Shown here one piece after another: positions 59,959 through 62,815 of a stretch of DNA of 64,000 nt; the stretch's first letter is position 1, and every line of letters starts with the position of its first letter. The stretch spans positions 4,600,501 through 4,664,500 of the forward strand of contig NC_091675.1 of assembly GCF_042453785.1 (NCBI RefSeq), given 5' to 3'. The translations under genes and the position numbers were made by a program. A model generated the notes under the pieces. The model made no database searches, had not been told where the DNA came from, and was given only the letters and a program-made list of their open reading frames with translations. The stretch is from Malus domestica. Lineage: Eukaryota; Streptophyta; Magnoliopsida; Rosales; Rosaceae.

Positions 59959-62815
59959 ATGGTTTTTGGGCAAGTGGTGATCGGCCCGCCCGGGTCAGGG
60001 AAGACCACTTACTGCAACGGTATGTCTCAGTTCCTCCAGCTCATCGGAAGGTAAAAAATTTCACTCTGATTTATGGGTGGCTACAGTTTTTTGTTTTTGA
60101 ATCTCTCTCAATGTTTGCATCGACCATTTCATCGTTTTCGGCTCGCAGGAAAGTTGCAGTTGTGAATTTGGATCCTGCCAACGATGCATTGCCGTATCCT
60201 TTCCAGTTTTTTCGTGTTTTATTGTTCGTAATTGCACTGTTGCATTGCATTCCAATGTAGAATGTTGAGCCTTTACGTGAATATAGGTATGAATGTGCTG
60301 TGAACATTGAGGATCTTGTAAAACTCAGTGATGTGATGGTGGAGCACTCTCTTGGTCCCAATGGAGGTGAGCTCTTACTGTTCTTTATTGAATCTATAAA
60401 AGTTCAATACTTGGGTAAATTAAAGAGTAGAAATTGTTTGGTTCGGGAATGAAGAAGGAAAACGATGGAAAGATAGGAAGTTATTGGACTCTCGAATTTT
60501 TCCTTCGAAAATAGGTGACATTTGGAGAAGTTAGATGGTAGGAACAATGGTTACTGACTTATTTTTGTTATTTAAGCATTTTAAGGACGATTTCCGTTTA
60601 CTGACATCATAAAAGCTCTTCCTTTATTTCTATTTTTGGGAGTGAGCTAAATGGAGTAAAAGGTGCTAAAATCCTCGATAGATAGACAGCACGACAGTTA
60701 ACAACTGCATTTCAAGGAGCTTCTATACCATAAAACATGAAGTCACTTGATACCTTTTTTTGTGGATGTACTTGATCAAGATGAAAACATGTAAAGCTTG
60801 AAATGGTGTTGTGCATCAGATGGTTTATAATCATGTATTCCTGTTTATTTTTTGCGGAGATCCTCTTGAGTTTATGACTAACCCATTAGTTGGTGCTGAA
60901 GTATGCCCTTTTGTTAGAGTCAACAAATGATGCTTTGTCTGGGCTGCAATTACTGAAGTTTCTTTCATCATGTTCATCCAGGTCTTGTGTATTGCATGGA
61001 TTATCTAGAGAAGAATTTTGACTGGTTGGAGGCGAAGTTGAAACCTCTTATGAAAGGTTGGTGTGTTCTGCCTTGCTTTACTTGGTTAGAATGTTCAGGC
61101 TCTGGACATTGATATCATGATAATCCTTTTTTTGTTAACCTGAGGGGATGGTAATCGCGGTTATTTCCTCCCCTTCTATATTCAGACGTCCAGTCTCATC
61201 GTGATCTTTCCATGCTATATTATTGATTCTTGAACTTGTTGCAATTGTGTTTTTCATGTTGTTTAGATGAAACACTGTACGCTTGTACAGCTTTTCCGAG
61301 GGTATTCATGTATTGGCTGGTGGGAGGACTTCTGTACATGTAGTTGCATTTTATTGCAAGAAACAGTTTCCAATTGGATCTTATGATAGTTCGGTATTAA
61401 ACTTAAAAGGTTTGACCAATGATGCCTAAATATATGAATGAAAATGAAACCTGTGGAAAAAATTAACTATTGTTTGAAAGCAAAATTAGCTTGTTTCTAC
61501 TTCTTTTTTTCCGGGTATAACTTATGCATCATAATAGCACGTTTGAAAGGAATTGAATGTTGGTGTTCATCTAGTTTGTAATAGTGCCATGCTGCTGCCT
61601 ATCTTTGTTATGAACTTTGCAGATCATTATATTCTCTTTGATCTCCCCGGCCAAGTGGAACTATTCTTTCTTCACTCGAACGCCAAGAATGTCATCATGA
61701 AGCTTGTAAAGAAGTTAAACCTCAGGGTATGATTTTAATCTTCTGTATATTTATAGCTTGCACCATTCACTTGGACCATGATAGTGGATGCGCCCTTGGA
61801 TTGTTATCTTGATGGCTTCCTGATTTGATGCAGTTGACCGCTGTGCATTTGGTTGATGCCCATCTTTGCAGTGATCCTGGAAAGTATGTTAGTGCATTGA
61901 TTCTCTCTTTATCAACCATGCTTCATATGGAACTCCCTCACATAAATGTCTTGTCTAAGATTGATCTAATAGAGAGTTATGGAAAGCTAGGTATGGTCAT
62001 GGCTTGTTCTTTTGCTATTTATTTTTTTTTCATTTTTTCCTTATACATCACATTTGAGATATCTGACTCATATTACTGTTTTCTTTTTAATCTCCGCAGC
62101 TTTCAACCTTGATTTCTTCACAGATGTAGAGGATTTATCTTATCTTCAGTACAAGATTGATCAGGATCCTCGTTCGGCTAAGTACAGGTTTGATTATATA
62201 TGATCTTATGGGAAAAGACTATGAAAATCTTGCCTTGGCTTTTTTTTTAATTTTTATTAATAACGAAAATGTTTCTTGTTTATATTGCAGAAAGCTTACT
62301 AAGGAGCTTTGTGAAGTAGTTGAAGATTACAGTCTTGTCAATTTTGCAACCTTAGATATCCAGGCATGCCAGTCCCTATCCACTTTACTCCCGACCTCTT
62401 GAATTTTTTATGCCTTGTGTTCTCACATGCTACTTTTCAGGATAAAGAGAGTGTAGGGAATCTAGTTAAACTGATAGACAAGAGCAATGGGTACATTTTT
62501 GCTGGTATAGACGCGAGTGCCGTAGAATTCAGCAAGATTGCAGTCGGTCCTGTTGATTGGGATTATTACAGATATCCTTTTTATTTTGATTCTACAATAA
62601 AAAGTTTGCGGGTAGCTCCTTATCTTGTCAAGATACTTGTGAATTATACTACAAAGTATTTGGAATTGTCCTTTAGCCACATCAGTATCTGCATTATCAA
62701 GAAACGACATTTTCTGTTTCGCTTAACAAAGTAGCTCACAGTTGCAGCAGTGCAAGAGAAGTACATGAAGGATGACGAAACTTTTGACGACGACAATGAA
62801 CAGCTGAGAGACTGA
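59959..62815 (+). CDS. QQT1: GPN-loop GTPase 2 (GPN2; Arabidopsis QQT1), 10 exons with a U12-type last intron
   Basis: GPN2 is a small GTPase that works with GPN1/GPN3 in assembly and nuclear import of RNA polymerase II; QQT1 is needed for early embryo division in Arabidopsis. Exons: 59959-60050, 60149-60193, 60288-60367, 60982-61056, 61623-61726, 61834-61990, 62100-62187, 62291-62363, 62441-62571, 62740-62815; 921 nt, 306 aa. Motifs: P-loop GPPGSGKT at residues 9-16, NLDPAND, the GPN loop at 69-71 (SLGPNGG), [10 protein letters not shown] (G3), and NVLSKIDL (G4). The C terminus is [14 protein letters not shown] plus an acidic tail. Intron 8 has a GC donor (CAG|GCATGC). Intron 9 starts ATATCCTTT and ends AC. 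Both keep frame and restore the family sequence. Confidence 0.94.

Follow-up and report, generated by a model that had tools for sequence, protein, structure and literature searches.

We find that positions 62572-62739 of the window, by which we mean the whole 64,000-nucleotide stretch of apple DNA that was analysed, are very probably a rare AT-AC intron of the U12-dependent class, the ninth and final intron of a QQT1/GPN2 gene. The sequence also points to a second intron of this class in the same gene, intron 2, such that QQT1/GPN2 is predicted to carry two U12-type introns of different subtype, AT-AC (intron 9) and GT-AG (intron 2). The first-pass annotation had proposed the AT-AC intron with a U12 donor, a proposal borne out by the exact donor, the CTCAC end and the AT-AC borders of the homoeologous copy; its inventory of U12 introns in this gene was right for intron 9 and missed intron 2. 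The features on which this rests are as follows.

59959-62815, + strand: coding span of the QQT1/GPN2 gene, 10 exons, 306 aa, a GPN-loop GTPase (gene model)
62364-62440, + strand: intron 8, GC-AG with a U2-like acceptor; GC-AG also in the homoeolog
62441-62571, + strand: exon 9 (gene model)
62572-62739, + strand: intron 9, 168 nt, phase 2, AT-AC, predicted U12-type
62572-62582, + strand: predicted U12-type 5' splice site of intron 9, ATATCCTTTTT, the only RTATCCTTTTY in the window
62721-62727, + strand: predicted U12-type branch site of intron 9, GCTTAAC, one mismatch to CCTTRAY, letters unchanged in the homoeolog
62738-62739, + strand: 3' splice site AC of intron 9 (sequence, gene model, homoeolog)
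62740-62815, + strand: exon 10, the last coding exon, including the stop (gene model)

The predicted protein matches the GPN-loop GTPase domain PF03029 in Pfam over residues 7-255 (E 3.7e-80) and contains the GPN motif within LGPNGG. Its closest solved structures by sequence are GPN3, which is the top PDB match, a chain named GTPase (7zhf) and GPN1; the C-terminus is covered by neither the PDB matches nor the Pfam domain. Since GPN1-like loci (L034, L048, L049 and L050) and GPN3-like loci (L046 and L047) are found separately in the genome, we take the gene, by elimination, to be probably GPN2/QQT1 rather than GPN1 or GPN3. A tRNA-Pro (TGG) gene at 59713-59784 precedes QQT1 on the same strand by ~175 bp, and is also present upstream of the homoeolog. 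Elsewhere, the window holds a 530 aa reading frame at 35743-37335 (strand -) that contains long, charged repeats in tandem, each unit measuring 72-276 bp, and has no Pfam match, and, at 50875-52699 and 53430-54707, a reading frame for an F-box protein and an Exo70 exocyst gene whose C-terminal domain is split into two pieces in different reading frames.

Exon 9 terminates in TTACAG at 62571, ATATCCTTTTT opens intron 9 at 62572 and CTCAC closes it at 62739, so that the intron reads ATATCCTTTTT...GCTTAACAAAGTAGCTCAC overall. The donor agrees exactly with RTATCCTTY (ATATCCTTT). The branch region, CGCTTAAC at 62720-62727, agrees with TTCCTTRAY (TTTCGCTTAAC) apart from one mismatch in the CCTTRAY core, a core that is identical in the homoeolog. 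The branch A is 62725 or 62726, 14 or 13 nt from the intron end, and is followed by CAAAGTAGCTCAC, without a pyrimidine tract; the spacing described as optimal for U12-type introns is 11-13 nt (PMC3584512). The branch-like motif that had been placed here at minor-spliceosome spacing thus stands as to position and distance, 13 nt from A62726, but is one core base off the consensus. Removal of intron 9 keeps the reading frame, restores a 14-residue junction sequence and leads to the stop at 62815; the earlier claim that splicing restores the family sequence holds for frame and junction, the family being represented in this comparison by the homoeolog only. Borders shifted by one base (TA-CA) give an identical mRNA, and AT-AC is the sensible choice between them. 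AT-AC introns are often missed by automatic gene models, and the C-terminus of QQT1 may therefore be mis-annotated.

The homoeolog, on C8 (L019), encodes a protein of 306 aa, 296 residues of which are identical to the copy in the window (C15), and the two genes share the positions and terminal dinucleotides of all nine introns, seven being GT-AG, intron 8 GC-AG and intron 9 AT-AC. The pairing of C8 with C15, and of C9 with C17 for other gene pairs, fits the apple duplication. Intron 9 of the homoeolog is 141 nt long, 27 nt shorter than its counterpart, and is identical in 111 of 141 aligned columns. None of the 29 columns formed by the ten donor positions and the last nineteen (branch to acceptor) differs, compared with 30 of 141 over the whole intron (P about 4e-4); the U2-type introns of QQT1 are also partly conserved at their ends, and we therefore read this pattern as moderate support. 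A search of the genome with the exon 9-intron 9-exon 10 segment returned the two homoeologs only, and found no processed retrocopy that would prove the junction.

Other readings of the interval have to be weighed against these signals. A U2-type GT-AG intron with different borders, the AT-AC reading being accidental, is in our judgement very improbable. That no GT is available here, as the first-pass annotation had it, is too strong: frame-keeping GT donors lie within the interval at 62604, 62612, 62627, 62639 and 62685, among others, and over the limited range scanned (donors 62480-62735, acceptors up to 62789) 44 GT-AG pairs keep the frame into the C-terminus. Every one of these pairs, however, loses exon 9 or exon 10 residues or adds foreign ones, and none restores the 14-residue sequence. 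The homoeolog has no frame-keeping GT donor inside intron 9, and its 18 frame-keeping pairs all begin in exon 9 and remove DWDYYR, while the donor itself is a perfect U12 site with weak U1 pairing; the GT-AG alternatives enumerated within this range were rejected.

An equally slim chance attaches to the interval being coding, or a regulated retained intron that gives a longer C-terminus (335 aa). The C15 frame does stay open through intron 9 until a TAG at 62732-62734, but the homoeolog, read in the exon frame, runs into in-frame stops soon after the donor, which argues that intron 9 is not coding, and these stops, together with the 27-nt difference in length, leave no conserved tail. In intron 9 the homoeologs are 79% identical, a value that falls among those of their other introns (66-90%) and below those of the exons (92-97%). 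Least credible of all is removal of an AT-AC intron by the major (U2) spliceosome, as described for some animal sodium-channel introns (PMC2831892), for although the class of an intron does not follow from AT-AC borders by themselves (PMC2831892, PMC3584512), those sodium-channel introns have G at +5, where intron 9 has C, and its donor and branch site are both of the U12 kind.

The preferred reading, an AT-AC intron of the U12 class, does not depend on the rarity of the donor motif. Exact matches to ATATCCTTTTT number 1281 (672 + 609) in the 651 Mb genome (19 contigs), and a reversed control pattern is commoner still at 4333 (2185 + 2148); by itself the motif is not rare. The shorter RTATCCTTT occurs twice in the window with both strands counted, against 2.07 expected in window shuffles, 61 of 100 of which have at least 2, while RTATCCTTTTY occurs at least once in 32 of 100. 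The count is thus at chance level; the location is not, as both matches coincide exactly with intron starts in one gene, forming the opening nine bases of QQT1 introns 2 and 9. Were junctions placed independently of the motif, which is not wholly so for intron 9, the per-position rate of 1.3e-5 would give ~6e-9 for matches at two of the nine junctions. When donor, branch and acceptor are required together within 1000 nt, the window yields two matches and a set of 20 second-order Markov sequences yields 0.35 for each 64 kb, a ratio biased in favour of our reading because the branch part was relaxed post hoc to admit both sites.

The second match marks intron 2, for which the features are these.

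60194-60286, + strand: intron 2, 93 nt, phase 2, GT-AG, predicted U12-type
60194-60202, + strand: predicted U12-type 5' splice site, GTATCCTTT (RTATCCTTT match, duplex energies)
60270-60276, + strand: predicted U12-type branch site, CCTTTAC, one mismatch to CCTTRAY, identical in the homoeolog

Intron 2 reads GTATCCTTT...CCTTTACGTGAATATAG, and 11 nt separate its branch A (60275) from the intron end. Its donor, branch site, spacing and GT-AG borders are all of the U12 type and all kept in the homoeolog, where the intron is 108 nt long and the nine donor bases and CCTTTAC are retained letter for letter. The conservation of its 3' half (48 of 50 columns) was dropped as a special signal, as intron 4 gives the same value. 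About 50 human genes are reported with two U12 introns (PMC3584512), and U12 introns are reported to cluster within genes in 21 of 21 genomes tested (PMC7367187); genes with two such introns are a minority, but a well-known one.

Pieces of QQT1 are also dispersed through the genome. One, corresponding to window positions 59949-60269 (exon 1 to just before the intron 2 branch site), is found at L020-L028, in 8 full-length copies at 93-100% identity to the query copy L022 (itself counted), with a partial copy on C3 at 86%; the C8 and C15 genes are 88% and 77% identical to L022, respectively. At least three copies (L022, L025 and L020) share >3 kb around the piece, so that capture of the gene fragment by a mobile element is likely. 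A second set, at L029-L033, holds fragments of the stretch that runs from the end of intron 1 to intron 3, two or three of them at some loci. As a neutral yardstick for intron 2 these fragments were set aside as little informative, being amplified repeats in which RTATCCTTTT is still intact in 16 of the 20 distinct copies. With both sets aligned, the first base of intron 2, a G after C in both genes, is A in 4 of the 20 distinct copies, and CpG decay is a possible route between the GT and AT subtypes.

Rfam searches of the genome return 9 matches to U6atac (two at 98-99 bits), 3 to U12 (2 over the cut-off) and 2 to U11, and U11, U12 and U6atac, the snRNAs expected of a minor-spliceosome host, are all represented over the cut-off. 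U4atac has no Rfam match in the genome, which is uninformative because it has none in 14 control genomes either; across those 14 genomes none of the four families (U11, U12, U6atac, U4atac) gives a match. Pairing the donors with the 5' portions of U11 and U6atac from this genome, and with U1, gives duplex energies in the C15 gene of -6.6 (U11), -7.9 (U6atac) and -1.6 (U1) kcal/mol for intron 9 and of -5.9, -9.3 and -1.5 kcal/mol for intron 2. The other seven C15 donors favour U1 (-4.5 to -9.7 kcal/mol) over U11 or U6atac, and the C8 donors behave alike. In U12 duplex energies calculated with the last 45 nt, by comparison, introns 2 and 9 do not stand apart from the other QQT1 introns.

We infer from these signals that both introns are spliced by the minor spliceosome. 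The U11/U12 di-snRNP would recognise intron 9 through pairing of U11 with the donor and of U12 with GCTTAAC, U6atac would then replace U11, and exons 9 and 10 would be joined. With intron 2 also U12-type (GT-AG), QQT1/GPN2 would need the minor spliceosome twice, and the level of the protein may be affected.

In the paralogous GTPase gene GPN3, both homoeologs (L046, L047) have a U12-like intron that opens with GTATCCTTTTT inside the codon after ...YCM and carries GTCCTTAAT (CCTTAAT), with the branch A 13 nt before the inferred acceptor.

3609-3811 of L047: U12-like intron of GPN3 on C9, 203 nt, ends TGG at the frame-keeping place
3550-3753 of L046: U12-like intron of GPN3 on C17, 204 nt, ends TAG

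On C9 the gene copy may be damaged, or else its intron may be a minor intron of GT-GG type. This intron lies at a different place in the protein from the QQT1 introns, and QQT1 is uninterrupted there; conversely, the place of QQT1 intron 2 is uninterrupted in the matched GPN1 and GPN3 exons, which argues that the U12 introns occupy gene-specific places. Among RTATCCTT matches at GPN1 loci, the one pair placed against the matched exons, in L034 and L048, falls inside the coding match.

The U12 dependence of QQT1 is already known from Arabidopsis, and the connection that the first-pass annotation drew from the gene to U12 splicing is accordingly a published one: QQT1 is described as a U12-intron gene whose splicing is impaired in a U11/U12-31K mutant and whose expression rescues the growth of that mutant (PMC5853960), a splicing defect is also reported in u11-48k (PMC4892727), and GPN2 is At5g22370 (PMC6748027). 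The apple gene resembles Arabidopsis QQT1 (At5g22370, GPN2; PMC5853960) in family and in having a U12 intron, but the passages on the Arabidopsis gene give no count, place or subtype of its U12 introns, whereas the apple gene has a predicted two, AT-AC and GT-AG. Our literature search returned no statement, in the text it reached, of two QQT1 U12 introns or of a GPN3 U12 intron. To the published work the present analysis adds a predicted second U12 intron in QQT1 and a U12-like one in GPN3. Intron 9 is also reminiscent of intron 4 of plant CBP20 (PMC5932401), an AT-AC intron with a U12 branch site that likewise divides a conserved core from a C-terminal tail, although CBP20 is another gene and its intron is described as conserved over land plants (PMC5932401).

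It seems rather unlikely, if conceivable, that the GPN GTPase genes are a point at which minor splicing controls the supply of Pol II assembly factors, GPN2 having two U12 introns, GPN3 one, and GPN1 none at the place of QQT1 intron 2. Were this so, a limiting minor spliceosome would lower GPN2 output more steeply than that of single-intron genes, which might account for the rescue of the Arabidopsis 31k mutant by QQT1 expression. The analysis gives the predicted minor-intron anatomy of an essential gene already marked as a key minor-spliceosome target in Arabidopsis, and two U12-type introns of different subtype, together with the U12-like intron of GPN3, would offer a testable reason for the sensitivity of QQT1.
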